Source of the DNA: Bryoerythrophyllum caledonicum
Taxonomy: Eukaryota; Streptophyta; Bryopsida; Pottiales; Pottiaceae
Length of the DNA: 64,000 nucleotides
NCBI GenBank assembly: GCA_963971425.1
Contig: OZ020515.1
Span: 5,200,678-5,264,677, forward strand
Reading direction: 5' to 3'
The notes below the pieces were generated by a model that did no database searches, had not been told where the DNA came from, and saw only the letters and a list, made by a program, of their open reading frames with translations. Shown in pieces: positions 11,875 through 58,221 of the stretch. Every line of letters starts with the position of its first letter. Within the stretch, counting starts at the first letter, position 1. The position numbers were made by a program, and so were the translations under genes.

Positions 11875-12290
11875 TAAACTACAAACCTATGCCGGCACCG
11901 GCAACCCCCATGTTAGCACCGACAGCCTCCATGCAGCTCCTATGTTGGCACCGGCAGCCTCCATGCTCACACCGGTAGCCCCATGTTTGTATATAAACTA
12001 CAAGCCCCTGCCGGCACCGGCAGCCCCTGTGTTAGCACCGGCAGCCCCCATATTAGCACGGGCAACCTCCATGTAGCCCCCATGCCGACATCGGCAGCCC
12101 CCATACTGACACTGACAGCCTCCATGTTGGCACCAAAAGCCGCCATACCAACACAAACAGCCCCCATGCCGGCACCGGCAGCCTCTATGTTGGCACTGGA
12201 AGCCCCCGTGGCGGCACCAGAAGCCCCCATGGCGGCACTGGTTGCCTCCATGTTGACATTGGTAGCCCCCATGCCGGCACCGGCAGCTCC
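11875..12290. repeat. 21-bp minisatellite encoding 7-residue repeats
   Basis: Units of about 21 bp, of the type CAGCCCCCATGCCGGCACCGG, run for some 400 bp, with a short interruption repeating ATATAAACTACAA. The period is an exact multiple of three, so several frames stay open. The plus frame gives A-P-M-P-A-P-A style heptads, and the minus frame gives G-A-x-G-A-M-type heptads. Open frames across such an array are expected and are not by themselves evidence of translation. GGTGCCGGCAC-type words also appear just outside at 11515, 12478 and 12791. Confidence 0.85.
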
Positions 12291-14407: not shown

Positions 14408-14438
14408 AACACCATATTCATTAAAATGAGACATTTCG
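14408..14438 (+). repeat. Left terminal inverted repeat of the 21.4-kb element
   Basis: The 31 bp contain CCATATTCATTAAAATGAGA from 14412. The partner is 35741-35771 on the other strand. The three mismatches are at position 4 and at the AT pair before the final TCG. Confidence 0.8.
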
Positions 14439-15291: not shown

Positions 15292-18110
15292 CTATAATTC
15301 AGCTAAAGATGCCTTGATTATGTCCACTTGTGATTTTGGAATTCTTAACCTAGAGGAGCTTGTGTTTCCACGCAACCTAGGCTTCCAAGCCGTTAAAATA
15401 CAATCTGTATACACCCAGATTGGTTCAGATTCAGTCTCTTCAACCCAATTATTCCCATGATTAGAATCCCACCCTTGGTACGTTTCCAAGTCCACATGAC
15501 GTTGGGATGCAGGTTTGAAGTATTGCACTTTAATCTCATGAGAATGTTCACGATCCGGATGTGGATTAGTCAACGCCAAGGCAATCCAAAATGGGCGCAA
15601 ATCCCCATCAGCAGAACGCACCGCAAGTATATAGCCCTCGTACACATCTCTACCAACCCGAAACAATGGAGGAGGACAATGACGACGTTGTCCAATGAAT
15701 GGAGGGTCCTCTGCATACTCCTCCCGCAACGACCCATCAATCTCATATTCATCCACCATAGATGGAGCATATCTAGATAGAGGCCAAAATCCCTCTCGTA
15801 GAAGAGACGATTCTTCCAAAGGCCCTTCGAGGGCATCCTTAACACCTCTCCAATAATACATAATATGCTCGTTCTTCCTCCTATATTCACCCGAGAGATC
15901 CTCGTTAGCCATCAATTCCCAAAGACTTAGAAACCCAGAGAGACCCTTCAAAACCTCATCATAATTCTCATGACGTCGCGGAATGAGAGGAAGCGGCTGA
16001 CCACGAGGCAAAATTGGCATACCATCTGCCGTCACTTTCCACAGCTGGATTCCTCCCTCCTCCTCGGGCAACCAATCCCTATATGTACAAAGAATTTTGT
16101 ACTGCATCTTTGGCAATCCATCTGAGCCCTTGTAGAACTTGAATTGTTGGCCCTTTGTGTGACCTGTAAGGGCCTCTTTGCCAATGCACAAATATCCTTC
16201 TAAAAAGCCCTTGAAATCGGGCACCTCTTCAATGAGGTGTGGAATAACTGGCATTTTCTCAGCATCCATGAATGATTTCATCAAGAGTGGAATCGTTGGA
16301 TAGCTATTTGACTTTAGTTTGGAACTCCATCTCCCAAACATTGCATCAATATCCTCGTGAGTATGACCAACAAGTAAGAAGTTGACATACACTTCACGGA
16401 AAATACCCATATGGATGAGGAGGGAAAAGAAAGCAAACACAAACCTATTTTTATTGTCCCCTGTGGCATTATCCAACTGCATCTGGAGAATTGGTGGTAT
16501 TGTTTTGCAGGAACAGGCTCAACTGGTGAAGCAACAAGGGATCCAAGACACATGTTAGCATCCGCAAGCACAGCCTGAGAGAGAGGAGAAGCTCTTCCTC
16601 CCGTAAATAATTCACGAGAAGAATACGCCGGTGGACTCTCTAAGTCCCGAAGTAACTTCGCAATCGATCCAACAGTGTGGTTCGAGTCGGTGGGGAAGAT
16701 ATCAAGACTATAATGGGCATAACGAACATCTCCATGTCCATGCGCAATCATTCTAGTTACGGCCACAGGCAATTTCATGAAGGACTCCGTCGCTTTATTC
16801 TTGTGAGAAAAATGAGGAGATGCGGTTTTGCTATGATCCATTTTATCATGGATGATGCACACAACCTCATTCGGTTTTTCTTCCGAGTTCTTCCGGTTCC
16901 CATAATATAAAATTCGATGAGTCTGTTGAGAGGCCTGGTGTAACTGCAGCTTGACTTCCCACATTTTGTATGCGGAAGACCCCCTTGTACAAGCCTTCTT
17001 TAGTTGCTTAAGTTGGTCGCATCTTCCGCAGCGAGCAAAGTTGTCACCAAGCTTCTTGGTAGAGTATTGTTCAAATTCGGAGCTCCGAATTTGACTCAGA
17101 CCAGACAAAGATATTGGTTTGAGGCCAAATCTTGAATTCACCTCATTCACTTTGGACAACACTCCACTCCATTGAAAAGAGGCAGGCAGGTGTTTGGAGA
17201 CCACCTTCTCCCCAGTGCCAAGTGTAGTAGTCTTATTAGGACTGTGATCAGCAGCATCATCAAGTATATCATGCAGAGTAGCAATTGCCTGTAGAGTATG
17301 AGTCCGGGGTTTCTTTGTACCAGTATTGCCGTGTGCCCCCGCCTGCATCCCATCCTTTGCCTCTCGTTTGTACCGGTAGAATGTGGCTCGGCTAACCCCC
17401 ATGATAGTACACCATGCATTTTGACATACATCAATTCCATCAAGCGTCACCACATTGTTGCCATTGGAATCCATGTGGATCTGCATGTGTACATCAAGCC
17501 AGACATGTTTCTGAAAGAAAACACCTCCAATGTCACGGTAAACTTGGGAGCGAAGCACAGAAATTGAACACCGTGGAAATCGTTGAGTACAATTTCTTGG
17601 ACAACATACGGTGCTCGCAACAGAGTTGATCGATTGTGAAGTAAGAAGTACTTCCTTCTTTCGTGGGGAAGGACCCTCTACTCTCAGACGAGTGGTTTCG
17701 TACTGTCGAACGCCTACCCTAGGACCGCGACGAAATACTTTTAGAGCTGCATTGTAAATGCTAGTTTGCTCTTGGTCGTACAAACTGACGTTGCAAAGAA
17801 AGACTTGTCGAGTTGGCCACGCTCGAAGGGCAAACATCCAATTCAATGGAATTTCAATCTCGTCTAAGCATTCAACAATTAGAATCGCAACATGATCATC
17901 TCCAAGTGGCCGACCACCAGTTCCAGGAACAAATCCAGAATCAACACTCTGGCAAAGTCCAATTCCAACATCAGCCCCAGATGTGTTTCTAAGGATCACG
18001 CGCTTTGAGAACCACGACGCGCGAGGAATTCCATCACATGCAGCAACACCTGGAGGCAAGGTAGGTGGAACTCGGACAACACCATCGTATGAGCGATCTT
18101 CCATCTTCAA
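15292..18110 (-). pseudogene. Transposase-like protein (DUF7869-type), one-base frameshift
   Basis: Read leftward from ATG 18110, the first frame is open for 598 codons, and a second frame (to 15292) continues the same protein. Features in order: a Cys cluster CCPRNCTQRFP near residue 190; a helix-turn-helix-like segment IDVCQNAWCTIMGVSRATFY near 235; HDKMDHSKTASPHFSHK near 445; then, after the shift, QLDNATGDNKNRFVF and VNFLLVGHTHEDIDAMFGRW. The last pair is the signature of a family I know as DUF7869, common in non-seed plants. The acidic residues in HDKMDH, QLDN and THEDID could form a DDE/D-type RNase H active site; that is inference. The C-terminus (PFWIALALTN...IWVYTDCILTAWKPR) looks like a small barrel domain. 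The frames join across a run of four A residues near 16487, consistent with loss of one base. There is no sign of an intron there. Seven palindromes lie directly upstream. It is the best candidate transposase of the element. Confidence 0.7.
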
Positions 18111-19032
18111 GATATCACAATGAAATAGACAGAGGGTAAGTCATTCAGTTATATCATCATAATTGTAAAGGACACCATCAATGAGAGGAGAATGAAACAG
18201 AGAAGATACGCTTATCCTCGACACGAGGATAATTGAAGTTAAAAAAACTATAATACTGAATTAGGAGATCATTCATGGAATCCACAGTGAGTTTTGACAA
18301 CTCACTCGTGATTTGAACCCGAAGAAACAAACCACATTTACACCTACCTCCGAACAAAGAGAAACATTCAGAGATTAATCAATCAAATTCAGAACTAGAA
18401 AAAAATTTCCTTAAATTTATATTTGCCAGTAACCAATCGAGATATGATTTCAAAATATTAACTCCATAAAGCCTCAGTGAGATATCCTCGAACCGAGGAT
18501 AGTACTCCAAAACATTTCACGAAGATTTGAGAGCATAAATGACATTCGCAATTTTCCAAAAACCAACAATCTCATATTTGACAATTAATATTCATCATAC
18601 GCCTTAGATGACATCAAACTGAAAATCAGTTATCCTCGATTCGAAGATAACTATCATAAAATATGACATGGAAATATTAAGTACCTTACCTCGGATATCC
18701 TCGACTCGAGGATAAGACCCTGGTTGGATAAACAACCAATAATGGGCAAAGACTGAAAACACATCAAACCCTGATCCAACCAATGATCACATGCAATATA
18801 CTCATTATATTATCATTGAAAATCAACAAGTTTTCTTACATTATCTTCGACTCGAGGATAAATGCAATTTCTGAAACATTTTCGCCAGATTCGTACAATA
18901 TTTAATCTAATTTTGAAATCACTATGATTCATTTGTTTTATCCTCGAGTCGAGGATAAGTCGTTCTTGGTTATATATATTTATTCATCTCATCTGAATAT
19001 ATCAGTGAAGGTTATCCTCGACACGAGGATAA
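18111..19032 (-). promoter_or_regulatory. Upstream region of the leftward gene with seven palindromes
   Basis: Seven copies of TATCCTCGANTCGAGGATA-type sequence lie here: 18212-18232, 18483-18501, 18630-18650, 18695-18715, 18841-18861, 18938-18958 and 19012-19032. Spacings vary from about 55 to 270 bp with no fixed phase. Arms of the best copies (18212, 18938, 19012) are perfect over nine bases around a three-base centre. As the sequence immediately 5' of the transposase-like gene, this is a plausible promoter or leader controlled through the palindromes. The regulator is not identified. Confidence 0.6.
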
Positions 19033-19869
19033 CACTGCTACAGTGATTCCGTCATATGCGGAGTGTCACAGATAGAGATTAAGTTTGAGTGCGAACAAGG
19101 TCCGCTGCAATGCTCAATGGTCAACAACACTTAATAACGTGCGATGGGGAGGTCGATCTTTACGCTTGCACATAAAGCTGAGGAAAAAACATTGAAATGA
19201 CCGGTGCGACGCAGGCAAAAAGAAAATGAAAATGACTTCAACCAACGTGCAAGAAATTCAACAACATAGGAAATACAGCCACACTTACACTCCTTCCCCA
19301 AAAACCTATCCAAGACATTCGTGTGCCCAAAAAAGACCTAGAACAATGTAAACCTTAGTTCAATATCTTACTGCAGAGGCAAGAGCTGAAACACAGAAGT
19401 GGAAGCGGAGGCGAGGCACAGAGAGGAAAGAGTTCGAAATGAGAAATTCCAGGGGGAAGTATGAATATCGACATGAACTCCGGTGCCCAAAAAACGGAGG
19501 TGGGCGGGAAAGACTTTTTCCAACGGCAGCATTTTTGGGCGGGAAAATAATGTACTTTTCTCTCAATTTTTTAGGTGACCTTTTCAGGTTTCCGAGTCAC
19601 TTCAATTTAGGAATGCGACAAACCCGAATAAAACAAAACGAGATTCGTTTTGACAAAATCGGATTTTCTAATGAATGAAAAACTGAAAGTTATATTTGGT
19701 TTATATGTAAAAAAGTAATAAAAACTAAAAAAAATCTGCTAGAAAGTCTTCAAATAAATTGATTAAAGACAAAAATAACGTCTAAATATTGAGCAAATAG
19801 TAAATTTGTAAACTAGTTCAAATGATAAGAATCAAACATATTAAAATATTATCATATTCAATATATTGA

Positions 19870-20080
19870 GAGAGTATTAGAATTTTGAGAGTTTTGCCTG
19901 ACAATTACAGCAGTCTTTTGAGCTAATTCATGTAATTTTTTTCTAATTATAGACTATCCTTGTTTCGAGGATAGCTATTCCAATTAGAATTAGAATTTTA
20001 ACTAAAAACTAGCAGTTGGTGCTTGCTTTGCAATGCATTCGTTCAACCATTTTAATGTAGTTTTCATATCACAAAATAAT
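19870..20080 (+). repeat. ~200-bp dispersed repeat, copy 1, with palindrome
   Basis: It contains a GAGAGTATTAGAATT start, the palindrome CTATCCTTGTTTCGAGGATAG-type at 19954-19974, and a tail TTGCTTTGCAATGCATTCGT. The tail alone recurs near 20222. Confidence 0.75.
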
Positions 20081-23000
20081 AAAAACAATGGTAACAACAA
20101 TCTACATAAAATATAAATATGTTATGAACGTAAAATTTGTAATCAAGAGTTACAAATATATTTTGGATAAGCACAAATTGCAACACAGAAATGCAAATTT
20201 CACACACCCAAAAACTCAAGCTAGTGCTTTGCATTGCATTCGTCCAACCATTTTAATGAAGTTTTTATATTACAAACTACATTAAAAAAATTGTAACATG
20301 ATTCATTGCGCGGTTGGCTGCGCAATTAACTGCGCGGTTGACTGCACCGTTCGTATAGTTCATTGTACGATTGACTGCGTGGTTCACCGTGCGGATTATG
20401 ATTTTAGTAGTATGATAAGCGTAGTAAAATCTGAATCGATTTAAAGAAAATACCTATTAGAATATTAAAAGTTTTAATCTACATCATTTGGTTTAGTATT
20501 GTTTTCAAATAAGAATCAAAGAAAATTTAATTTGGTTCAGGGTAATAGTATTATATTTTCATTAAAGCATTATATGTTTCATTAATAAAAAATCAGACTT
20601 TTCTCAAATTTTGATCACTTTTAAGTAAGATGATAAATGTTTTCTGTCACATACAAGTAAAAGAAGAACTCCGGTTTAAAGGGCCGGCGTGAATAAAGTA
20701 ATTGTTTGTTCCACCACTAAGTCCATGTCCACCGAGTTTATGTCAACATTTTTGTTCACAAACTTTATAAATTACGAAATAAGGAAAACTCAATACAATA
20801 TTCATTATTCTTAAACAAAAATCAATGTTGAATAGAACTTAAATTATTGTTTAAATGTTGGTTGAAACTGTTCTGGGCTGTACCCCAAGCCTCTACAATA
20901 TATCTTCACAAGAATGGTATAAAAGAACACCAACGAATTGGATATCAAATTATCAATTAATGACAAAATTAAACGTTAGACAAATGAAAAATTATAGAAG
21001 CACAAATGAAAAATTTAATTTGCAAAATTAAACGTTAGACAAATGAAAAATTTATCACATGCAAATTTTTGAAACAAAAATATTTATTTCAACTCATTGA
21101 ACTTACATTGTACTCTTTTCTATACCAAGATAGAGTTTAACTTTGAAATGATATCAGTATTACTAAATATCATATTGTTATAGACTTGAATAAAAAAAAA
21201 CAACCAATTGTTGTTGAATCATTCCATGCTTTTCAAAATGTATATCTCATAATACTTATATAAAAACTTTACTGAAATGATTTTATAAAATATTAGATGA
21301 AATTTAAACTTTGTAGCTTGATTTAGCTCTTGTAGGAAATATATACTTAATCCCTGAAGAAAATAATCTCCTTCGAGGGAATTTCTTGAGTTCGGGCAAT
21401 TACCTATGATATTAAATATCTATTTTATGTGTTTTAAATTTTTACACTAGATTTTCCTTGGTCAAAGCTTTGTATAGGTGTTTTTATTATGTTTCTTGGT
21501 TTGTGGTTCGAAAGTTAGTACCACTTAAAATTAAAAATATAGACTCTGCGCAGCTCCGTATTGTTCATAGAAGTTTCTATTGACATTTAGATTTTTCTGA
21601 CATAGTAAGAATATTTCCTTGTTTGCAGATGTACAAATACAAAATTTGTTTTTGATTATGAAAATATTTTTTACCCTTGTCAAACAGTTTCACACATTAT
21701 TTACCAAGGAACACAAAAGCATCTTCTTTTCCTCATAAACCATATAGATCCTCATAGTTTCCCATTTTTATTTAATCTACAACGATATGTGAAGTTAACC
21801 TTGTTAGTGACTGTCTGGAACAATATTGTAAATCATATTTAGTTCAAAAAAACTACAATACGTGAATATATGACCTTTTTTGAATTCCAAATCTTTGCAG
21901 AATGTTTTTGAATATGCTACACTCCTTTTTTACCTTTAAGTATTGGTGTACAAGGAACTAGAATCATGCCAAACATAATGGTAATGCATTAAGAATCTCA
22001 AAAATAGTGCAAGTGTTTAACACTAAGTTAAGTGAACGTTTGGTTATCCACTCAACGCTGGAAAGAAATTTAACCATTTTCCTTCTTCAAATGCTAAAAT
22101 CTTTCAATCCGTCCGGTCAATGTCAATGAAGTTTTGTAAGTTGATTATTTGGTAAGTATTTTTTAAGATCCTACGGTAAAATTTAGAAATACAAGTATTT
22201 GTTTCTTTTCTTACTTATTGCACTCGAATCAACAGTTTAGAAGCAATTTTGGTGTGAAGTTGATCAGGAACTTAGATAGGGGTTAAGTAGTATTGAAGTA
22301 TTTTATACACCTTAAGTGGTTCATCAAAGGTTGATTAGGCAATAGATAATTGACATTAAAACTTACTTTGAGTAAGTAAAAGTTCAGCAAAGTATACGTG
22401 TTGAATGCTAAATTAATCTCAAAGAATGCAAGCACTACAAAAACTCGTCAAATTTGCGTTCAATAACAGTTTTGAAGTGTCTATATGAAAAATTATCTCC
22501 GGAAACGCTTTAAGAAACAGTGGTGTTGTAATGAGGTTCTCGCTTCATGGGTTGACAAGAGACCGAAATGGAAGTTGTTCTCTTGTTATTGTGCTAGGAG
22601 TAGCGATACTTTAGGACTCACACATAACCTTTTTTCTAACGACTAACTTGGCCCGGGTTTTGGCCCAACCTCGCCGGCCCTGGCGGGGGCTCGCCGTGTT
22701 TTTCATTCCTTGCAGTAAAGACGTCCTTTGCTTGTGTAAAAAATAAAACAAAAAAACAATACATGCCATTATATCCAAATTATTTAACTAAATTTATAAT
22801 TCTTTAATTTTCCATTCATTTGAATTTTAATAAAATCAATGTTCATCTTAAAGAGTCCTAAAATAGCAAAAATTAAGTAATGTAAACCTCTTCTAATGTA
22901 TGTAACGCAAACAAACTTAACATGGATAAAAAAGATTTGACTTAATTAAATATTCAGAAATTTAAAGTATGTTGCTTTTTCAATAATTGTATATTTATAA

Positions 23001-25527
23001 ATAATTGAAAGAAAATAAGCATAACATATGATTATGGTTGTTCAATCTATCAGTAATAAAATAGCTCTAGCCTTATGAATATCAGCTATCACACTTAAAC
23101 GTGTTATATAAGAAATTTACAAAAATAATCTTCGACTAAAACCTTCATCTTGAGGATTCAAGGAAAACCTATATTTAGTTTAACTTATACAATTCATCTA
23201 GTTCATTTAATTCATGTGTGATATGTGTATTCATTAAATTTATTTATCTATTGATAATCACAGTCTAAAGAAAATTCATATTAACAGTTGAAGTATTTAA
23301 AATAAATTGGTAAGAAAGATGTTTATTTTGTATGAAATAAATTATATAATCATTTATGAGATAGGATTTAAGAAAAAATTGTATTTCAAAGATTTATATT
23401 GGGAATTCAAATTTTGAATAACAATATCAAATTTAACTAGATCATAATGATCTCAATTCTCATGATTTCTCCAAAATATTTCCGTATTAATAGTCATTTT
23501 ATTGTCTAAAATAACAAGGAAATTGAATATAACTACTTTTGATGGAATAATGTATCTTCATTTGGCAATTATTTCCTTTGGGGAGAGGTATTTATAATTA
23601 AAAAGTATTGTGTAGTATAAAAAGTTGAAGATCACTTATCTTACTCCAGACTACTTTATAACATTCATTCGGGAAATGGTCTTTTCGTTTTGCGTATTTA
23701 AGTAACTAATGGTCACAATGTGTAGGTGTTAAAGTAGATGATTTTATTATTATCATAAAAGATTCTCTGAAACAATAACCCAAAGCTATAATTCTGTAAA
23801 TTCATCTAAAACACGTTCTTGATTTACCGTTATTACATTCCTCAAATATCAAGGAAAAGGGTATTTCAAATTGACAATAAATTAGAGAGTATCAACTCCT
23901 AGGCGTTAATAGCCGGTTCAAAAAGATAGTAACCAATTCAATTAGACAGTAGCCATGTATGCAATTCATTAATTATCCTTTAGACTCCTTACGAATGATT
24001 GAATTCCTTCTATCAATTTATGGTATGCAATGATGCATGAGGCATGGTGAGTGAAAATCATTTATCACAAGCAAACTCCCACGTACTCTTTTTTAATAAT
24101 TGCTTTTGCAAATCCATCATAACTCACCTAGTTCAATTCATCACTTTATTCTTCTTTCATAATCACATTTGTAGTCCTTCAGTCCTTCTTAATTAGCGGG
24201 ATAATTTATAGAAATTTCATAAAATATGGCTTTTTCTATGTTACGACAATGACAATAATAATTTTGATAAATATTCAAAGTATTCCTTTAAATTCGATTT
24301 GATCTTTTAGGCTTAGTTGTTAAGGGTGATCACTCCTTAATTATCATTCATCTAAGAAAATTCAAATAGGTGGCCGAATAAAATTCATTCTTCCTCTATA
24401 AATTCAAGCAGTAATAAATCTAATACTTACTTTATTTCATATAATTCTATTCACTAGATTTATTGTAGATTAGATGGGCCCTTCTACTCTACTCAATCTA
24501 ATAGAGTTACGGTCACTAATTATAATAACTTTTCCCTCACTATGATCTCTTTTCTAGATCCATAGTTCAATTTTCTATAAGGGCAGTTCCAATCAATGCC
24601 ACTCATCAAAACATTTTATTTTATGCCAACCTTGTCGTATTTATTATTATTAAATTACTGTGCACACAATTTTTAATATATTATTTCTCTCAATCCAATA
24701 ACAGTAACTCCAAATTCACAGCTCGATTGGACAAGTTTCAACTGTTCCTGTTATCTCTAGGGCCATCTTACGATACCCAATCAGTTGCACTCAACAGTAT
24801 GTCAAATTGACCACACCTTCAGATCATGTATGAAGGATCATTGTATGCATAAATTCCAGACCATAATCCAAACCGTGTCAAATTGACTTCAATTACTGTA
24901 ACCAACATCATCATTCTCAACCACCTTCTTATCCCGAGTAAACATCAATTAGACAAAATCACTGTTTAAGACGCTCGGCCAGACACCAACTCCAATACAG
25001 AACACTATCAAATTGATTTAGTAATACTTGTTTTTATTTATGAACAACAGTCCTCAATTCAACTTGAACATATTCCATGGCTTTCTACAGTATCGTTGCT
25101 ACATAAAAATTTCCTATAACTCAGGCATCTATTCGACAATCACTCTAAAAATATTCTGAATTCTATTGTAGTGTTGTGTTTTCTTTCCTTTTCCAACTTC
25201 ACTTCAGGATTCATAGTCTAATAGCGTACTCCTTGCAATTTGAATCAAAGAGATGCTATCTTGAAAACATCTTTCAGGATCAAAAGCTAAAGGGCAGGAT
25301 TGGCTCCAATTGACTCTACTTTAGGATCTTTAAAGCTTTTCAGTTCACATTTGTAAGATATTTCTTAAACAGTTCAATACTCAATCCTATTTAGTCTGTT
25401 CGATTGAAAATACCTACAAAATGAAAATTTTAACGTTTACATATTGTAACAAATAGTATATTTCTAAATTAGTTCAAATGATAAGAATCAAATATGATAA
25501 ATTATAATCAAATTCATTATATTGAGA

Positions 25528-25740
25528 GAGTATTAGAATTCTTAGACTTTTTGCCAATAATTACCGTACCTATTTTGAGCTAATTCATGCATGTTGTTTA
25601 CTTTCTAATTATAGAGTATCCTTGATTCGAGGATAGTTGTTTCAATTATAATTAGAATTTTATCTAAAAAGTACCAGTTGGAGCTTGCTTTGCAACGCAT
25701 TTATTCAACCATTTTACTGTAGTTTGTATCACAACAAATA
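25528..25740 (+). repeat. ~200-bp dispersed repeat, copy 2, with palindrome
   Basis: It is colinear with 19870-20080, including the palindrome (25616-25636) with the same CCTTGATTCGAGG left-arm variant and the tail GCTTGCTTTGCAACGCATTT. The palindromes in this family share CTTG in place of CTCG, so they were copied together with their flanks. Confidence 0.75.
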
Positions 25741-25959
25741 AAAAATACTTTTCTCAACAATCTACATAAAATATACACATATCTTGGATACCTTTGCATG
25801 AATTGAAATAATCTATGTCTATAAAGAATACAGGATGAAGAACACGTTGAATAGATGAACGCGCAGATGGATGAACGCGTCGAGCTTGGATGAAAAAGTG
25901 ATGCGTCGAGGAAAAATGCTTAAAGATAAAAGTTAACAGCTAAAAGCTAGGGTTTAGGA

Positions 25960-26180
25960 TAAAAATGAAAAGCTAAAAATTATGATTTTGGATAAAAGGA
26001 CAGGGCGGGAATGGGGATGGAGACGGGGACGGGAATGGGGACAGAGACGGGGGACGGGGGACAAGGGGACAAGGACCGGGGGGACGATGGATTGGAGGGA
26101 AAGGGCTAGAGGACAGAGGGGTGGGGACTGAACACAAAAAAAGTTGTGTTCGGTGGACACGGGTAACAATCTAGTGTAAT
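25960..26180 (-). repeat. G-rich dispersed repeat, inverted copy
   Basis: Read on the minus strand it is the same repeat as at 46500-46860 and 46868-47030: ACCCGTGTCC(T/A)CCGGACACAA, a CCCCGTCCCC-type tract, and TTATCCAAAACCCTAA-like ends. It sits inside the 21.4-kb element, so the repeat family moved or the element captured it. Confidence 0.8.
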
Positions 26181-26234
26181 TGAGTTGAATTGAAAAAATA
26201 TAATATGGTTTTTGATTTTTTGCAATTTAACATG

Positions 26235-26400
26235 TTGAGAGAGTATTGGAATTATGAGACTTTTTGCCGATAATTTCATCTGCTATTTTGAGAAAATTCA
26301 TGCATTTTGTTTACTTTCTAATTATAGACTATCCTTGATTCGAGGATAGCTATACCAATTATAAATTAAATTATCATAACTAGTAACAAATGATAACTAG
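26235..26400 (+). repeat. ~200-bp dispersed repeat, copy 3, with palindrome
   Basis: It has the same order as the copies at 19870 and 25528: GAGAGAGTATTGGAATT, TAATTATAGACTATCC, and the palindrome at 26329-26349. The tail has been lost. Confidence 0.7.
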
Positions 26401-26970
26401 TTACAAACTTACAATTTACATCATAAAATTGACACAAGGAAGAAATAAAATATAAGCAGTGAATCAAATATATTATAGATCCACTCCAAGAGTCCTACTT
26501 TGATTGACAATGTATGTAATAGTTGTTTACAAAGTTACGATATGAAAGTTTTAGAATAACAATTTACAATACAATCGAAATGAAAAATATCATGATTTAC
26601 ATTGATTACAATAATTTAATAACTCTAAATATAATTATATGAAGTAAAAATTTAAGAACTATCCAAATAAACCAATATGGAAAACATTTTCATCATGCAA
26701 GAGTATGCCAAAGTTGGTAGTTTTAAAATCATTCTTGCAACAATGAAATCGACGGATGAAAACGTCACAAATTCAATTAAATGAACAAAAATTCATTCAC
26801 CGAAGAACATTGTGAAGGAATGCGTAATTTCAATGAAATTTCTATAATGAAAGTGATTGGACATTCAACCGTTGCGTCGCTTTTAAATTAGGTTTCTATC
26901 CAAAGGTGGCGAAGAAGTGGAAAAGCCACCAATCCCGTCACTTTTTCAAAGGTGAACGAGGGCATGACAC

Positions 26971-26973
<3 letters not shown>

Positions 26974-27028
<55 letters not shown>
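26974..27028 (+). repeat. (CT)n microsatellite
   Basis: About 27 CT dinucleotides. A shorter CT run follows at about 27151, and each run is followed by a near-identical TCGCTAGGGTTT. CT tracts of this kind are common in plant 5' leaders, which fits the position ahead of the rightward gene. Confidence 0.95.
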
Positions 27029-27031
<3 letters not shown>

Positions 27032-27681
27032 GGTCGCTAGGGTTTCGGTGTACTCTCATTTTCTGTGTGTGCATTTGGAAGTGAGTGCGCGTTTGTGTAC
27101 GCGTGTGAGGGCGTGATTGTTTGTGTTGTATGTGCGTTGTATGTGTCTCTCTCTCTCTCTAAGTCACAGCTCGCTAGGGTTTGTATAATCTCATTTTTTG
27201 TGTGCGTGTGAGAAGTGAGTGCGCATGTTAGTGCGTTGTGTGAGTGCGAGAGTGTGTGCGCTTGTGTGTGTGCGTATGTATGTGAGTGTTTATGTAGTTT
27301 AAGGTGTGTGGGTGAGTTTAGGGTTTGTGAAGGTGAGTTTTAGGTGTGTGAAGGTGCGTTTTAGGTGTGAAGGTGAGTGTGTGTGTAAGCCCTACATGTG
27401 TGTATGTGCACATGAGATCGTGATTGCTTGCGCTTAGGGTTTGAAGGCTTCTGAAATTAGATTGATTCCAGCGAGGGTTTTGATAGTGATTGGCAAGGTG
27501 TTCAAGCTGTGTAGGTGTCGGTGGTTTCGATTTTCCTTGCGAGGGTTTCGGTTGTCGTACGAGAGTTTTCTCAGGTCGTGGACGTGAACCAGACCCTAAT
27601 TTTACGGATCTTCCCTAATCCATTGTGCACTACGAATTTGTATACCACAGCTTCTCGTTGGATTTCTTCCCAAACACTCCA
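27029..27681 (+). promoter_or_regulatory. Probable promoter and 5' leader of the rightward gene
   Basis: The stretch is GT-rich and has two copies of CAC-AG-TCGCTAGGGTTT (about 27028 and 27164), each behind a CT tract. AGGGTTT is the telo-box word seen in many plant leaders. It ends at a strong 5' splice site, AAGTAAGT, near 27682. I cannot fix the transcription start. Confidence 0.45.
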
Positions 27682-28266
27682 AGTAAGTTTATGATACCTT
27701 TTTCAATTTTGCGTTGATTGATTTTGTAAGAATATCATTGTGCGTGCAAAAGATTTGTAAGTGTATGTTTTCATAATCTCTGTGTGTATGTGTGCATGTC
27801 TGCTTGCGTTTCTCTGTAATATGAACTGTTGCATCCAGTCTCCGGATCATTTTATCCTCGAGTCGAGGATAACCTCCTTGCCTTGGTTCAATGACTGTGT
27901 ATTTGTAAAATAGCAACCATAACAAAATAGCGTTCTATCTTCGATCCGAGGATAAAGTCCATAGTGTAGATGACTTGTCATGTAAGCATCATGAGATTCA
28001 CTAACAAACTTCTTGTTCCTTATCGAAAGTAAGACATTTTCCGATATTAAAATAGTATTCTCGAGTCGAGGATAGATTCAACAGACTAAACAACGATACT
28101 CACTTAGACAAAATTATCTCTTATCAGTAATGAAGTTGATCAAAGGTTCTAGATATGAATGCTAATCCGGACGAAGAAAACGCTAAATACTACATGGTGA
28201 CCTATCCTCGAGCCGAGAATAAGCGACTTCTGTGCAACTAACGTGAGTTTAAATTTGATATTTCAG
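27682..28266 (+). other. Putative leader intron carrying four palindromes
   Basis: It runs from GTAAGT (27682) to TTTCAG (28261-28266), which directly precedes the ATG. It holds palindromes at 27852-27872, 27935-27955, 28055-28075 and 28202-28222, the densest group outside the region upstream of the leftward gene. An intron just before a start codon is common in plants. Splicing here is inferred from the two sites only. Confidence 0.5.
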
Positions 28267-29646
28267 ATGGCGACAACCGAAATGGATTGGGATGACAACT
28301 ACGACTACTCATCCACTGAGTATTTCATCGAGCGATTCGAAAATCCAGTAGCCCCATCCCCCTTCATAGAAGAAGTCGTAGAAAACTATGGAAGTCTTTG
28401 GCAATTCAAGGATGTCGTCAAGAGCTGGTCACTCGCAAAAGCTGGAAAGTGTATCCAAATCTCGCTCAAAGTAAACGACGACGTTCCGTTTGTACTCCTC
28501 AACCGAAACGAAAGAGTTTTATTCATCGAGCAACAGCAAGTAGGGTTCATCGTACTTGGAATCCAGGCTGTGAATGCAGATGGAGATGATCTTCAACACT
28601 GCCACTCCATTGTAGTGAAAGTGGGAACTTCTTATGGCCAATTTGATTTCGAAGAACTGCTTGAATGCGTGGTGAGGAACGGTCAGGGATCCCTTAAAGC
28701 GACGTTGGAGAAGTACCTTCCCTGGGAAAACAATGATGCGGTAAAGGTCAATAGGCGGTTGGTTCGAGTTCACCAGTTATTGTCTGCATTTGAAGCTCGA
28801 CAAGCTCCAGTTGAAGGCACTCAACGACGCCGACCACGAGCAAGTACTGCAGATGTGGCGAATCCATCTGGTTCATCCATTCCAAGAACATCAAGCCGTC
28901 TTCCTTCGAGGCGACCAACAACTACGGCGGCAACGGCTGGCGAACCTTCAACGAAAAGAAGGAAAGCAGCTGCCGGTGGAAGCTCGGCCTCCACTGTAAC
29001 GCGTGCAGTCACTCCAAGTAAGGCGAGGAGCGATCCCCAAGTTGACTTCCAGAAGATCACGGAGTCACAGCGGCTTTTCTGGGAGGAGTGCAAGGGGTGC
29101 TTTCCTTTCGAATCATCCACACACAGTGTGTGGATCGAACAATGTGTTGTTGCAAAAGCTCAATACGTAATTCGTGGCATGGAAGAGGGCATAGTGCTTA
29201 GCACGATGGACTTTCTCGTTCAGCTTGGCGAACTCGATCAGCGCCAGAAGATTTGTGTATGTCCAGTCGATGACGACGGTGAGCCGCTAAAGACGAAGCC
29301 AACCTCCTGGGAAGATATCAGAAAGGGAAAGTTCATGCTCATTAATGGACAGCACAGTGTGGAGGCATCCAAGCGACTGCAAGAGAATGACGACTGCGGA
29401 CAAAGTCGGAAGAACGGCCTTCGGAATTGGGGTGCTTATATTGTATGGTCTAGAGATCCTCTGATGCTTCAGAGAATTTCCAAGTTTTACAATGACACAA
29501 ATTACCTGGACCATGCACAGCCAACATGGGGTAACCAGATCTCAAGTTGCAGGAGAATCTGGCTAAATTCCGGACGTCCAAGTTATCAACAAGGCGAGGC
29601 CGCATCACGAAATAATGGTGCCGTGTTTGATCAAGAAAAGTACTCG

Positions 29647-29897
29647 GTAAGCTCTCTCTATGAAGTATATCCTCGGGTCGAGGATAATGCAATCAACACA
29701 CTATATTTGCTATCAGTATCGTATATGGACCTGTCTAGTATAATCATTGTGTGTATCAATCTGTCTTGTTTCCTCGGGTCGAGGATAATCTATGCAATAC
29801 ACTATGATCAGTTACCATCACCGCAATCATCTATCCAGTTTTTGATTGATAAGGTTTCGTCTTCTGACTAATGTATGTTCGTTGTATTGAATTGCAG
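29647..29897 (+). other. Intron 1 of the GQHS gene, two palindromes
   Basis: It is bounded by GTAAGC and ATTGCAG, 251 bp, with phase 0 on both sides. It contains palindromes at 29667-29687 and about 29767-29788. Without removing it, the first frame runs on into an unrelated hydrophobic tail. Confidence 0.7.
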
Positions 29898-31220
29898 CTA
29901 TTTTCCAAACTAATCGTTACCCGCTTTCAAAACATCGATCCGACTAAGGAAGGAAAGCAGGTAACCAAGTCATCAGACATCACCAACGAGATCAAGGTGA
30001 TTACGCTTCCTGATGACATTTTCAAGATGTGGGAAGACTTTCTCGACCGACATACCAAAGGCGAGATCATCAACCCCGACACCTTGAGTCTTTACAAGGA
30101 GGCAAGAGGGTTCAGAGCTTCACCAATTCATCGGGAGTTCTTCAAGAGATTGGGTCATCTCTCCGATAAGGACTTGAGGGATCTGTTTCGCTACCTGGTT
30201 GACAGTGATCGAGCATATGGATACCCCAAAGTCACGCTTCGTAAAACGAGCGTGGTTCATGGGTCCTGCTATCACTACGAGGAGTGGGCAGATCGGCGTA
30301 AGAGAAAGCGCATCGTCTTGTAGGAATTGGTGGCGATTGACCCGTCATTGCATTTTTAAATGCCAGACGGGTCCACAAACAACCCAGTGTGGAAAGCGTG
30401 GAAGCAAGAACATTGCGTATCGTCCGCCACGTACAATATGCTCTTTGTCCAACCGGACAAGGAGTTCTTCTCCATGAGGTTGACAAACGCAGGGAAACTC
30501 AAGCGCGCGTCCCACTTATTGGAGAAGTTTCCCAATGTTCTTCCGTTTTTTCGGAAGTTCTTGCATGTGAAGAGCCGCATCGATCCCATCGATGGGCCTT
30601 CTAAACTTCGTGACTTCGACGGGGAGAAGATGGAGTTCTGTTCATATTTTGACCCACCTACTGACGACAAAGTGTGGTCCCTCGGACTTCTTGACCTTCG
30701 ACAGGTCCCTGGGTGGGCCCTAAAGGACGACTCTTCCGACGAGCCTTACTTTTCAGCGTTTTTGAAAACCCTGAAGACACAACAAAGCATTCCCAACCTG
30801 AACTCTCCTGCAGTCTAGGTGTGGATAACATCTACTGAGCAGCGGGCTAGGCAAGCAGAGAAGTATGCTGAAAGAAGGATGCCAAAGTACAATACTCTTT
30901 CCTCAACATACATTCCCTCCCCATACAAGCGGCTGAATTTAGGGACATCAAGGTCTAAGTGTACTGAGGTTTACCTTCTATTCCTTATTAAAGCCGACCT
31001 TCCTGAATCAGCCGCCTTGCTTGAGAAAGTGAGGTTGAACTACTCTGCTGTTGATACTCCATTTTACATGGAGAGAAACAAGTATTTGGAGGCCTGCTTC
31101 GCGGTCCATGGTTACGAGCTTAGGATGGAGTTCTACCTCGACCTTCTGATGGACTTCAGCAAGCCTATGAGCCGAGTGTTTGGAATATATTCCGGCTCAA
31201 AGTTATTGCTCGCCAGTAAG

Positions 31221-31446
31221 GTAACAAATCACAATCGATTTCTGTGTTTATCCTCGACCCGAGGATAACCATCCATTGTTTGTATTGTAGTAATCTATGT
31301 CTACTATAATTTCCTGCATTTCGATCATAGTATATCCCATTGTTTTGCAATGTTAATTTTCATCCCATGTACTGTTATTTCAACGTTGTTTTATTTGCAA
31401 TGACGAATTTTTGTCTACTAAAATTGATTCGTCGTATCCTCTGCAG
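31221..31446 (+). other. Intron 2 of the GQHS gene, one palindrome
   Basis: It starts GTAACA and ends CTGCAG, 226 bp, phase 0. A perfect-arm palindrome lies at 31248-31268. The downstream exon begins ATGTCTGGAATG, so an internal start at 31447 is also possible. Confidence 0.65.
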
Positions 31447-32687
31447 ATGTCTGGAATGTCTTTTTACGGTCTGGTGGATCTGACCTTTCGAAAGTTATAC
31501 AAGGAGAATTCTAGGAAGATTCACATGTATGACATCAACGATTTTATCCACAAGGACTGTGCGTATGTTGGGCCTCTTCCAACTCTGTCCGGTGGGCATG
31601 AAACTTCATCAGCTAGGGCTGATCAGAGGCCTACTCGACCAGCAGCACAAACGGCCTTGACCTCTCAAGCTGCCCCTTCTCGTACTCATGCGCAGGCAAG
31701 GGCATTTGTGGGAAATGATTCAACTGTTCAAGGACGTCAAGATCTGGGTGGTTCTCGATTCCGTATTGAATCGCGAATCCCTCAAGACTTTTCGGAGGAC
31801 ACCGACCCTTCAGGCTTGCCACCATCCGCTCCTCCTAACCCTCTGGATAAAGAACATGACAAAGTCTTTGAGTTCAATCCGTATGGGAGTAATGAAGGTG
31901 TGGACTTGTCAACGCTTGGATTTCGTGACGCCGGGCCTTCATCTTTCTATGAATCACCCCGATCAGCGACTCCTGTTGCTGGTGATGACGAGGAAGGGCT
32001 TCAAGATACTGTAGATCCTTTGGTTTCGCCTGTAGTGCTGTATGAATCTACAGCGAATTTGGAAACTCAGAATCCTGAGACACCACTTTCATCTAGAGCA
32101 TCAACGCCGGTTGGCTCCGTAATCATGCTCTCTGATTCTAGTGACGACGAAGACGAGAGACTCATTGTTCCAGAGGTATGCATCAATGCTGCCGGAGAAG
32201 CTCCTGCTCCTGGAGTCGCGGTAAAATATGAACCAGGTGCTGATTATTTCCAGAACATGGCGATCAGACGCGCTTTGGAGGAGAAGGTGAATCAGGATAT
32301 CCTGGAGCAGTTGGAGGCATCCAAGCACAAACAGGCTGAGATGGAGGCTGCCTTCGAGAAGCAAAAGTTGGAGTTTGCTTTGGACAAGGAGCGGATTGCG
32401 GCCACTATCCGTGCTGAGCTTCATCTGCAGATGAAGGCCGACCTGGCACAGATGATGTCCTCAGCCTCTCTCTCCACAAGTGCTGATTCATCTGGTCCTT
32501 CACAGCCTCTTATGCCAGAGTCCACAGTTCATTCTCGCATCGAAGATAATTCTGGTACTGCTCTGTCGACTCCCTGCCAGAATATTACGATGAACGTGCC
32601 AGACTCTGTCGTTCGTCAGCATTCTTCCCCGGCTCGTTCTCCTGGTGTTCACGACATTCCGTCTTCGTCCCAAGGAATGGATGTGAA

Positions 32688-32708
32688 TTATCCTCGACCC
32701 GAGGATAG
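32688..32708 (+). repeat. Palindrome within an exon
   Basis: This is the only one of the nineteen copies inside a called exon. It translates in frame as NYPRPED within the disordered tail, a place where extra residues would be tolerated. Confidence 0.8.
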
Positions 32709-32985
32709 AATGTTGGTTAGTCCTCAGCAAAGTCCACCGAAGTGCAATGACACCATAATGCCTTGCCAGAATATGATTCATCGTGATCATGGTGCCACCT
32801 CTGTTCCTGCTTCCTCGCCACATCAATTCCCAATAACTCTTCGTCAGTCCGAAGAGTGCGATGTTGGAGCTCGCGTTGTCAATCATCTTGTGGATGCGGA
32901 TGTTTTATGTGCGGTGGAGGAGGATCGAGTGGATTACGAGCCGTCTCCGGAAAGTGTCGACCTGGGCACCTCTGAACCTGACAAG

Positions 32986-33098
32986 GTTGGCTAGTTTTTT
33001 CCTCTGTTTTTTTCTTGTCCCAGTAGCATTTGTCGTGTAGTTTTTTAATGTCTACTTCTAGTCTTCAGTAGGTCTTATATTGGTGTGTTGGCTTGCAG
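32986..33098 (+). other. Intron 3 of the GQHS gene
   Basis: GTTGGC to GCTTGCAG, 113 bp. Splicing replaces the two last codons before a TAG with ESDPYEF and a TAA stop at 33120. Retention would change only the last few residues. Confidence 0.5.
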
Positions 33099-33217
33099 GA
33101 ATCGGATCCATATGAGTTTTAATGTACATTAGGCGGAGTGTACATATTTATAATACGACTTTGTTTATAATTTATAGAATTGTTTAACAATTCAATTTTC
33201 TTCAATTGTTTTCTCAG

Positions 33218-34189
33218 ATGAGAATGGATGATATTGTTCATCGACCTCTTGCATTGAAGCCTCGGATTGGGAATGATTACAGAAGTCGCTATGTGGGGGA
33301 GAATTGATGCAATCTGTGACGCTTCCTTTGCATATTGCTCAATGTGCATTTCATCAGGTAATTTCCATTGACTTTAGTGTGTATTCGTCTTGTCCCAGGA
33401 CTGTTTGCGGAGGAGTTTGTCCGTTGTTCCCAACCGGCGGCCACCGAAGTGGCTTAATATTGTTCTGGATATTAATGGCATCCTGTGCGAGACAGAGCAT
33501 GCCCCTGGGTTGTCTAGAGGCTCAGGGAGTCGGGCAGCGTATTCTTGCACCGTCCCTGCGTACATAGGTCCCAAAGCTGTATATACTCGCCCAGGAGTTC
33601 GTGCGTTTCTGGCGGAAATCAGAAACATTACGAACTCTATTGTCGTCTGGAGCTCTATGAAGAAGTCCACCATAGTTGAAATCGCAAAATATATTTTTTC
33701 GGACATGGCTTCTCCAGCTTTGGTTCTTGGTCAGGAGAGCTGTGAGAGAATTGAAATCTCGCCCAATAAGTTCTTGATGGACCCGAATAATTCGAACAAG
33801 ATGATCTTCTTGAAAACCCTGTCATCATCTTTGTTTAGGCGCCAAGTTGAGTTGATGGTCTTAGATTCAGACAACATCTCATCGACGATAGCCCGGAGAA
33901 GAGCGTCTGTAATCATATTGGAAATGCCATTTTTCTTTGTCCGTGGAGACATGCGGCTTCTGATGACCAGTTCCTTACTCAGGACCTTGTACCCTGGCTG
34001 CAACGTTTGGTTTCCGAATGCCCCGTTGGGCAATTACATGATTTTGTTAATAACAATCGTATTGGAGTTCAACCGTTGGCGCGTAGTAGCCCTTTCATGA
34101 GATATATTGTAGATGGGATGACGCTCTCAAACAAGAACGTTGGTTTTGTCTATGATATTCCAGACGGTCATACCTCTTCGGATTTATAG
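33218..34189 (+). pseudogene. FCP/NLI-type HAD phosphatase-like protein, two one-base frameshifts
   Basis: The ATG at 33218 follows TTTTCTCAG. After a short N-terminal exon comes WLNIVLDINGILCE, the motif I region of FCP1-homology (CTD-phosphatase-like) HAD proteins, with the second Asp replaced by Asn (D-x-N), as in some plant members. Then YTRPGVRAFLAEI, IVVWSSMKKSTIVEIAKY (motif II) and ELMVLDSDN (motif III) follow in the expected order. The Asn change suggests binding without catalysis, or altered chemistry. A possible intron (33358-33398) is only 41 bp, unusually short. The frame is lost at a run of five G (33295-33299) and again at CCC (33992-33994); after the second, the same protein continues to 34189 (HDFVNNNRIGVQPLARSSPF). 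It lies directly after the GQHS gene and may be captured host cargo. Confidence 0.6.
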
Positions 34190-34464
34190 TTTTAGACTTC
34201 TATTTTGTAATATAGTAGATATTTAGTATCGACATTGTAATCACCATTATACATTTTGAATATATATATATTTTTCAACTACAACAAGTTTTTTTGTAAC
34301 TTATTGCCATTGTCTTGTGTCTTTTGTTTCCTAAGTTTTTTTATTTATCTTTCGGTCGGTTCTAGGATTTATCACTGTTTTCAGTATTATTGTTTATACT
34401 CTAGTCAAGCTTATTTTATTTATTATGGATTCAAGGTAAACTGTTTTCCTAAGGGCTTTCAAAT

Positions 34465-34485
34465 TTATCCTCGGGTCGAGCATGC
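34465..34485 (+). repeat. Decayed palindrome upstream of the last ORF
   Basis: The left arm TTATCCTCGGGTCGAG is intact. The right arm ends CATGC instead of GATAA. It lies between a 5' splice-like AAGGTAAAC (34434) and the 3' site TTTTGTAG (34551), so it too may be intronic. Confidence 0.7.
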
Positions 34486-34551: not shown

Positions 34552-35316
34552 GTTGTCAAGGCTACTATCCCTCCTCTTTGTAGGAGTGATCCTAGTAAAC
34601 CGCCCTCCAACTGTGGCTCGTTTTCTGAGTATTCTGGGTCTCTTCCTGGAGGTTTCTCCCAATCTCACTATTCAAAGCCGTTTCTTATGTGCACTGCAAC
34701 CGATGCTGCCTCTGCTATCATGGACTTTTCTACACAGAAAGTCGATGATGGTGTTGTTGATAGCCCTCCTGAGCGGAGGGCTGGAATTCCTTGTATGGCA
34801 TCTCCTTCGCCGCTCAAGCGAATGTGTGCTTCTATTGAGCCTCTTGGCGATGGCACTCCTAAACGGCAGCTCTATGTTAATGGTGTAATTGATGTTCACG
34901 AGGTGAATGAGTCTGAGCCTATCTCTTCCAATTTGATTATTCGGCCTTCAATTATTCATGTCCAGCTTTCTCCTACCCCTGCTAAGCGTAGTCGACGTCC
35001 AAGTTCAAGATCTGATGGTATTGTTGGAGTTAGTAGTCCTCCCTTACGTTCAACGGGATTGCATACTGAATCTTTGGGTTTAAAGCCTAGATCTTGGAGA
35101 TCCGCATCTTCACAGTTTCGTCGGAATTCATTGTGCTTGAGTGGAGGTGGTGGTTCTGGGGCTGATAGTGGTTGGTGCCATCAATCACGTCATTCACCTC
35201 TGCAAAAATCCATGAATTATTCGGAAGTGGATGATTACTATAAACCCTATTCTCGGAGGAAGGAAATTATGATTGGATATGCGAAAGTGAAAGTGCAGGA
35301 GGCCTTGCTTCTCTAG
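34552..35316 (+). CDS. Ser/Pro-rich protein of unknown function
   Basis: The open frame begins at the 3' splice-like TTTTGTAG (34544-34551) and runs 254 codons to TAG at 35314. An internal ATG lies at 34687. The protein is rich in Ser, Pro and Arg (SPPERRAG, SPTPAKRSRRPSSRSDG, SGGGGSGADSG), which predicts disorder, and it has short basic clusters suitable for nuclear import. I recognise no domain. The upstream exon is unclear: the nearest ATG (34425) would join in the wrong frame. It may be a further exon of the preceding gene or a separate small gene. Confidence 0.45.
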   Translation, partial: VVKATIPPLCRSDPSKPPSNCGSFSEYSGSLPGGFSQSHYSKPFLMCTATDAASAIMDFSTQKVDDGVVDSPPERRAGIPCMASPSPLKRMCASIEPLGDGTPKRQLYVNGVIDVHEVNESEPISSNLIIRPSIIHVQLSPTPAKRSRRPSSRSDGIVGVSSPPLRSTGLHTESLGLKPRSWRSASSQFRRNSLCLSGGGGSGADSGWCHQSRHSPLQKSMNYSEVDDYYKPYSRRKEIMIGYAKVKVQEALLL

Positions 35317-35740: not shown

Positions 35741-35771
35741 CGATTTGTCTCATTTTAATGAATATGGGGTT
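35741..35771 (-). repeat. Right terminal inverted repeat of the 21.4-kb element
   Basis: On the minus strand it reads AACCCCATATTCATTAAAAT and continues TGAGACAAATCG, matching 14408-14438 at 28 of 31 positions. TTTG follows at 35772-35775. Confidence 0.8.
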
Positions 35772-39034: not shown

Positions 39035-39984
39035 TGAGCCAAATAAACCGCCCCCTAATGGGGTGGCTTATCTTGAACACAAGATCCTACATATGGGATG
39101 CAGCCCCTTGTGCAAACATACTTTAACCATTCATACAAGCATGATGACCCAAGGCGTGGTCACTTAAGAGGGTTCGTTAATAATTAGTGATGTGATGGCT
39201 GAATTGAGCCTTAGGTTGAATCCAACCTTTAGACAAGCGTAAATTCCGCCTCAAAGCTTTGTTTCCAATGTTTTAAAGCTCCATTAGGTTCAATTTTGCC
39301 TTGTGAACTTGATTAGCACCTTAACCACCAATTCCAGGCCCAAGTGCGACCCTAACAGCAGCAACCAGCAGACAGGCTCCTCTTTTTATGTTAAAAGTTT
39401 AATTCTTCATTATCTTCGTGATTATGACTCCGTTTTTTACGTTTGTTTTTTGTATTCTAATTAGTTTTTCTTGCTTAACACGATGGCAGCCTTCAATTGA
39501 TCATTTGACTCGACCCTGGACCTCCCAGCCAGCGACCAGCAGTGCACCTTCAACATATGACTTTATTCAAGATCATGCACCACATTCCTATGCATGTATC
39601 ACATTCATTCACACAAGAATCCACCCCAGCCTTACTAAGAGTGAGCCTCCAGCTGTGTTCACTTACTAATGACGCTCTAATCGGTTATTTAGTTGAATAT
39701 ATAGCAAACCCTAATTCTACCAAAAAATTGGCAGCGCTTCCGCGTGGTTTTTGTATTTGGAAAATTAGGGTTCAAGTCATACACATGGAATTGAAGAGGT
39801 TCGAGGGAGAAAAGAAAAGGGGCTCCCTGAGTTAATTCGGTTCACCCTCCATCCTTAGCCTTCGACTTGCTTGGTCAGCTCGTGATCTTGCTCGTCTTGT
39901 TCAGCTCGCAATCTTGCTCCTCTTGTTCAGCTCGTGATCTTGCTCCTCTTGTTCAGCTCGTGATCTTGCTCCTCTTGTTGGTGC

Positions 39985-40640
39985 TCTTCACTCCGCAGCC
40001 TGTATCTTCGTTGTCACAGCTCCGATCCGCGCGTTCTTGAGCTTGTTGGAAAGCCAACGTTCTAATCTATCTACTCCTAAAATCTTAGCCTGATTGGACA
40101 AGAACTCCGCTACTGACGAGGGAAAACCTGAGGCCGTATGAGATCCGCCATCGATCCTCCAGCTGGTCGTCCTCACTCTGCCGCCCGTATCTTCGTCGTC
40201 ACAGCTTCGATCTGCATGTTCTTGAGCTTGTTGGAAAGCCAACTTTCTAATCTATCTACTCCTAAAATCTTAGCCTGATTGGACAAGAACTCCGCTACTG
40301 ACGAGGGAAAACCTGAGGCCGTATGAGATCCGCCACCGATCCTCCAACTGGTCGTCCACACTCCGCCGCCCGTATCTTCGTTGTCACAGCTCCGATCCGC
40401 GTGTTCTTGAGCTTGTTGAAAAGTCAACGTTCTAATCTATTTACTCCTAAAATCTTAGCCTGATTGGACAAGAACTCCGCTACTGACAAGGGAAAACCTG
40501 AGGCCATATGAGATCCGCCACCGATCCTCCAGCTGGTCGTCCTCACTCCGCCGCCCGTATCTTCGTCGTCACAGCTCCGATCCGCGTGTTCTTGAGCTTG
40601 TTGGAAAGCCAACTTTTTAATCTATCTACTCTCCTATTTT
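39985..40640 (-). repeat. ~185-bp tandem array, four units, in copy B
   Basis: Units restart at about 40056, 40240, 40425 and 40611 with GGAAAGCCAAC on plus. Minus ORFs repeat the peptide MAFQQAQEHADRSCDDEDTG once per unit, simply because the unit keeps the frame open. Confidence 0.9.
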
Positions 40641-58203: not shown

Positions 58204-58221
58204 AGTGGATGGATGCTTCCC

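Follow-up and report, generated by a model that had tools for sequence, protein, structure and literature searches.

Three related DUF7869 transposon families of the moss Bryoerythrophyllum caledonicum carry different palindromes, candidate sites of an element-encoded ParB-like protein

Three related families of DNA transposons with a DUF7869 transposase are present in the genome of Bryoerythrophyllum caledonicum (437 Mb), and each carries its own long palindrome at the starts of its genes. We describe them starting from a 64,000-nucleotide stretch of contig OZ020515.1 (positions 5,200,678 to 5,264,677; assembly GCA_963971425.1), called the window below, in which a 21,364-bp transposon holds 19 copies of the first of these palindromes, M1; the two related families have M2 and M3. 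Our preferred reading, to which we give about an even chance, is that M1 serves as a set of family-specific loading sites for a dimeric ParB-like protein that the element itself encodes and that would affect transcription within its own family, probably to counter silencing.

Results

M1 consists of two constant 8-base arms around a 3-base centre, TATCCTCG-NNN-CGAGGATA, in the aligned copies. A preliminary description of this DNA, made from the letters alone, had given nine-base arms with the same centre; the centre stands, but the flanking T/A that would extend the arms to nine bases is frequent and not constant. At up to 3 mismatches all 19 of the copies listed there were found again and no further one in the window, most of the starts given having been one base early and that at 29767 two bases early. 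Shuffled sequence gave a mean of 0.02 copies and none of 100 shuffles reached 19, which rules out a chance origin and confirms the array. All 19 copies lie within the element bounded by terminal inverted repeats (TIRs; 14408-35771) and none in the remaining ~42.6 kb of the window, as had been claimed. Seven are 5' of the minus-strand transposase gene, four 5' of the divergent plus-strand gene (hereafter the accessory gene), three in an intergenic repeated stretch, two in the predicted intron 1, two in further predicted introns and one in a coding stretch. The flanks of the copies are unlike each other save for the three in the repeated stretch, the exceptions already named in the preliminary description, where the repeat was put at ~200 bp; it measures ~150 bp. 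Its three diverged copies (19940-20086, 25602-25748 and 26224-26372) hold one M1 site each.

Across the genome we counted 914 exact ANT-centred M1 sites and 1911 with perfect arms and any centre, and the reversed pattern was found 0 times. Every M1 place examined outside the window (11 of 11) belongs to the same element family, nine segments by coding sequence and two isolated places by DNA similarity; an equal density elsewhere, which the preliminary description had named as evidence against its interpretation, did not appear. The nine first segments were chosen for an exact M1, and this comparison covers these places out of the 1911. Because such a sample is biased, 20 places were picked by hand along the list of 102 transposases of this family (family 1) and 1.2 kb 5' of each was read. 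Seven or eight M1 sites were present in 19 of the 20 (137 in total, 75 with perfect arms), and a general lack of the motif in other copies, also named beforehand as contrary evidence, thus did not appear either; the remaining place has none, and it runs into retrotransposon-like DNA with matches to repeats at the window edges too. Two more elements were obtained complete to both ends; they measure 20,239 and 19,441 bp and have 22 and 20 M1 sites inside and none in the sequence outside (19,761 and 559 bp).

When the same segments were searched for gapped palindromes next to divergent transposase relatives, two other motifs emerged, M2 in family 2 (TTTAGCTCGNNNCGAGCTAAA, i.e. TTTAGCTCG-NNN-CGAGCTAAA) and M3 in family 3 (AACCGGAGATCTCCGGTT). 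M1 and M2 have an inner CTCGANTCGAG in common and differ in their outer parts, and M3 is different. The transposases of the related families are 30-42% identical: residues 1-511 give 42% identity between the family-2 transposase and that of the window, and for the family-3 transposase, which has M3 around it, the identity is 30-41% in parts. One family-2 element has 25 M2 matches at up to 4 mismatches (segment positions 1182 to 12178), located 5' of the transposase, 5' of the accessory gene and between the parts matching exon 1 and exon 2; an M1 site between the exon-1 and exon-2 matches likewise recurs in segments c, d and f. In another stretch of the family-3 segment eight M3 matches surround an accessory gene and a NIF-like frame, and this stretch joins family 3 by M3 alone because no transposase was detected in it.

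Promoters were then compared between families, 20, 13 and 5 of them being hand-picked from 102, 104 and 90 listed transposases (3664, 3726 and 4060 first-look candidates). All 13 of family 2 have 6-11 M2 sites (105 in total) and, at up to 3 mismatches, neither M1 nor M3, and all five of family 3, one of which was chosen for having no exact M3 in the site list, have 3-5 M3 sites with no M1 or M2 at the same threshold. In the 38 sampled promoters, own motifs thus occur in 19 of 20, 13 of 13 and 5 of 5, and neither of the other two motifs, again at up to 3 mismatches, in any family. Genome-wide there are 3853 M2 sites and 363 copies of the 16-base core of M3, the reversed controls giving 0; on C1 below 24.44 Mb, an exact M3 stands at most 3 kb upstream of 12 of the 13 family-3 transposases listed there, as against 0.4% of random positions. 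These observations suggest that each family makes a protein recognising only its own kind. Different palindromes in related families favour an element protein over a host factor. Host transcription factors, a different one captured by each family, would suit sites in promoters and introns, but the three motifs without cross-occurrence in the sampled promoters and the location of all examined M1 places in the element make this improbable.

Motif columns, taken wherever any aligned copy has a site at up to 3 mismatches, are better conserved than their flanks, which bears out the earlier suggestion that the site itself is maintained. In the transposase 5' region, 105 of 112 motif positions agree between the window and segment d with no gaps, as against 592 of 860 others, and 99 of 112 against 552 of 840 for segment f; the nearly identical segment g gives no contrast (109 of 112 and 849 of 871). 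Motif-shaped blocks have a mean identity of 0.938 between the window and segment d (7 blocks) versus 0.665 for 695 other blocks, and 0 of 20,000 block resamples matched the motif mean. Summed over 14 overlapping comparisons, A/T positions changed in 35 of 1011 cases in the motif versus 1451 of 14601 elsewhere, CG in 21 of 343 versus 177 of 1038 and CHH in 13 of 343 versus 373 of 3783, and Fisher values for these sums are too small because the comparisons share sequences. Since the A/T positions of the motif are conserved, selection appears to act on the sequence. In two single comparisons the motif CGs changed at least as often as the others (6 of 30 versus 16 of 152; 4 of 24 versus 3 of 14), so there is no uniform CpG protection; CpG protection alone is ruled out by these two comparisons and by the equal conservation of the A/T positions. 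One may also suppose that the sites have no function and that descent within a single expanded family, or homogenisation through conversion, accounts for them. Many sites do stand at homologous places in related copies and three stand in the duplicated stretch, but the high identity of the motif blocks, the slower decay of motif than flank in the 14 comparisons and the different palindromes at corresponding places of families with such divergent transposases make this very improbable.

How the sites are read is indicated by their variation. Among 119 distinct M1 strings the changes per arm are about equal (101 and 93), two-sided changes show no excess (15 versus 19.2 expected) and changes leaving G-T pairs (68) are not favoured over those leaving A-C (83). 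Arms that change independently and with no wobble preference point to two half-sites in DNA and not to a hairpin. Together with the family-specific palindromes they argue, at the level of sequence, for the dimeric element-encoded reader put forward in the preliminary description, whose interpretation is supported, short of saying which protein binds. For M2, with 50 distinct strings that vary most at positions 4 and 16, there are 20 two-sided changes versus 10.9 expected, 9 being compensatory, which is not fully explained. This excess would suit palindromes working as hairpins, in RNA or single-stranded DNA, as would the inverted-repeat form of every site, perfect or nearly so around 3 central bases. 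However, the M1 counts speak against hairpins, and the wide scatter of the sites, which stand at the starts of both genes, in introns and in an exon, better suits a DNA site; we see hardly any likelihood in it.

In CACTA/En-Spm elements TnpA sites are repeated in the subterminal regions, unlike in the window element, where the distance to the nearest M1 site is 3,805 bp at the left end and 1,287 bp at the right. As no M1 occurs within 3.8 kb (left) or 1.28 kb (right) of the ends, end recognition by the transposase is unlikely and a role of M1 as end-binding transposase sites was rejected. The transposase could instead read the palindromes to autoregulate its own gene and the accessory gene. 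It is made by the element, it differs between families along with the motif, it has a weak HTH-like stretch, and its 5' region has the densest cluster in all sampled promoters that carry sites. Yet the terminal regions, which a transposase must find, have none, and the common domain of the accessory proteins would be left unexplained, so we consider this reading unlikely.

That domain, with the signature GQH[ST]VxA, is found in the accessory genes beside M1, M2 and M3 (as IINGQHSVAA in the family-2 element and IIGGQHTVEA in the family-3 stretch). Sequence and profile searches and plain Foldseek gave nothing significant for it. With a structural model of the domain, of modest quality, VIA-align listed 19 entries, of which 17 were ParB, PadC, Noc, KorB or sulfiredoxin, and on this model the domain may be ParB/sulfiredoxin-like, which fits the partition-type protein guessed at earlier. 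For the exon-1 protein as a whole the model was unusable (pLDDT 33). A GERR-type CTP-binding box is a feature of ParB proteins; in the alignment, judged by eye, the domain is without it and has (I/L)INGQHSV or IIGGQHTV at the corresponding place.

The coordinates of the window element are collected in Table 1. Its 31-nt TIRs are also found in related copies, and in the three elements with both ends in hand (3 of 3) the target site duplication (TSD) is of 4 bp: TTTG in the window, TGAA and AATA in the 20,239- and 19,441-bp elements. The transposase frame is broken in the window copy, and many of the copies listed elsewhere keep it open over 949 codons. A Pfam scan of the window element frames gave only DUF7869 and weak HTH-like matches for the transposase, no MULE or MuDR-type transposase domain and no methyltransferase domain.

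Table 1. Features of the window element, and a possible fourth motif array elsewhere in the genome (last line).
Feature	Position	Strand	Remarks
Left terminal inverted repeat	14408..14438	+	AACACCATATTCATTAAAATGAGACA..., TTTG before it; 31-nt inverted repeat, 90% identity
Transposase gene, DUF7869	15292..18110	-	DUF7869 E 1.4e-36; two frames, 18110-16314 and 16518-15292
7 M1 sites 5' of transposase gene	18213..19031	.	18213, 18483, 18631, 18696, 18842, 18939, 19013
M1 site, first copy of intergenic repeated stretch	19955..19973	.	motif scan
M1 site, second copy of intergenic repeated stretch	25617..25635	.	motif scan
M1 site, third copy of intergenic repeated stretch	26330..26348	.	motif scan
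4 M1 sites 5' of plus-strand gene	27853..28221	.	27853, 27936, 28056, 28203
Accessory gene, predicted exon 1	28267..29646	+	C-terminal domain with INGQHSVEA; GT donor at 29647
Two M1 sites, predicted intron 1	29668..29787	.	29668, 29769
Accessory gene, further coding stretches plus2, plus3, plus4	29898..31220	+	tblastn matches in related copies
M1 site, predicted intron	31249..31267	.	motif scan
Coding stretch plus5	31447..32994	+	tblastn matches in related copies
M1 site within coding stretch plus5	32689..32707	.	weaker 20th M1-like site (4 mismatches to core arms) at 32530
NIF (NLI-interacting factor-like phosphatase) domain frame	33378..34189	+	E 1.1e-5, 25.6 bits, cut-off 21.8, for 33378-34100
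M1 site, possible intron	34466..34484	.	motif scan; weakest of 19 (3 mismatches)
Last plus-strand reading frame	34552..35316	+	47-85% identical matches in related copies; no Pfam match
Right terminal inverted repeat	35741..35771	-	TTTG after it (4-bp TSD)
GATCGGG-N6-CCCGATC array	L015 8213-8633 (segment e17.34 18213-18633, C1 ~17.354 Mb)		

Several other observations were made along the way. NIF (CTD-phosphatase-like) frames are found near genes of all three families, in the window (33378-34189) and in segments L014 and L009; those of L014 (4499-5122 and 5361-6041) are near a family-2 transposase on the same strand, and that of L009 is at 9381-9998. A fourth family may have the motif GATCGGG-N6-CCCGATC, which stands in a 30-bp tandem array on the 5' side of a transposase relative of 27% identity, and the gapped-palindrome search gave no clear motif beside another relative. 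Exon-1 stops in older copies (L007, L011, L013, L016, L021, L023) fall largely at Q/W codons of the window, which fits C-to-T changes and possibly reflects an effect of DNA methylation. Outside the element the window has a Ty3-type retrotransposon on the minus strand (53848-59481; gag 58222-59481, protease, RT, RNase H and integrase 53848-57306) and 185-bp tandem repeats at 39988-40631 and 62862-63844, apparently mutually inverted and with like sequence in L047, near which 26-bp repeats lie at 509-694 and 39870-39979.

Discussion

We propose that the element makes a dimeric DNA-binding protein that would read M1 in DNA, with one half-site for each subunit, and that the most likely reader would be the ParB-like product of the divergently transcribed gene. 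In the manner of the ParB relatives VirB and KorB, which load at specific sites, it could load at the intron sites and at the 5' clusters of the two genes, and it would then influence how its own family is transcribed, probably by opposing silencing by the host. As the related families have changed their palindrome, each would act on its own copies only. Binding, the identity of the binder, its loading and sliding and the effect on silencing are all steps that we infer, and by analogy with known systems anti-silencing may be the likeliest role of the M1 system.

The closest functional likeness is to the VANDAL transposons, whose VANC proteins remove silencing and bind motifs that are specific to a family and dense in the noncoding parts of the element (PMC5735166, PMC10398659). 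There too the motifs occupy noncoding regions, introns and gene 5' regions and differ between related families, and VANC is a single element protein specific for its own family, as is proposed here for the M1 reader. M1, M2 and M3 are family-specific and enriched in noncoding regions, with one M1 site in coding sequence. The differences are that VANDALs are of MuDR type, as against the DUF7869 transposase here, that VANC motifs are of 8-9 bases, in one orientation and often in tandem repeats, as against palindromes of 18-21 bases, and that anti-silencing has been demonstrated for VANC and is inferred for the M1 element. One possibility may be that another plus-strand product, not ParB-like, is a VANC-like anti-silencing DNA-binding protein. 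Several more conserved plus-strand stretches are without a known domain and the layout of the sites resembles that of VANC21 targets, but Pfam gave no DNA-binding family match in those stretches, and we hold this to be rather doubtful.

For a ParB-like reader there are bacterial parallels. VirB is a ParB-type clamp and anti-silencer that acts at virS (PMC10770331), and KorB is a ParB-type clamp repressor at OB (PMC11790492). Both have the ParB fold and influence transcription at a distance after loading at specific sites, the role proposed here; they are bacterial and recognisable as ParB by sequence, whereas the moss accessory domain is assigned by a model. The outer half-sites of M2, TTTAGC/GCTAAA (for example in L048-L060), are the same as in the KorB OB oligonucleotides (PMC11790492), but their spacing is 1 base in OB and 9 bases in M2, and the likeness may be due to chance.

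The element itself is Sola-like by its size of ~20 kb, 4-bp TSD and gene layout, with a DUF7869 transposase and a high copy number. A TSD of 4 bp also occurs in superfamilies other than Sola. It is stated for Sola2 (PMC3627910), and Sola1 has been recorded for Physcomitrella (PMC9033089). In Ectocarpus, Sola1-1_Ec32 (21.5 kb) carries an opposite-strand gene with ParB-like and methyltransferase domains, and its authors propose that such proteins bind their own transposon (PMC12477816). The size of ~21 kb, an accessory gene on the strand opposite the transposase and a ParB-like domain, here assigned by a model, are thus alike, and the methyltransferase domain of Sola1-1_Ec32 distinguishes it from the M1 element. 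The sections of that paper available to us name no binding sites for the ParB-like protein, and among the matches listed in a search for ParB-like transposon proteins or their sites it was the only pertinent one. A literature search with any of five motif or TIR strings found no report, and one with DUF7869 gave the same result, in line with the earlier statement that no plant transposon with this motif was described.

We would speculate further, and with a good deal less confidence, that this is a eukaryotic system like ParB-parS, in which a clamp of the ParB fold would load at element-wide palindromes, slide and exclude or undo silencing, and in which families would part from each other as palindrome and reader change together. 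M1, M2 and M3 are in any case candidate DNA sites for ParB-like transposon proteins, and their 1911, 3853 and 363 exact sites in one genome form a large natural assay. Three motif sets in a single genome, two of which share the inner part, make the evolution of specificity testable through site swaps. If our hypothesis were correct, sequence-specific self-recognition by transposon families, known from VANDALs, would have arisen a second time, in a different kind of transposon, with other proteins and with long palindromes where VANDALs have short motifs.

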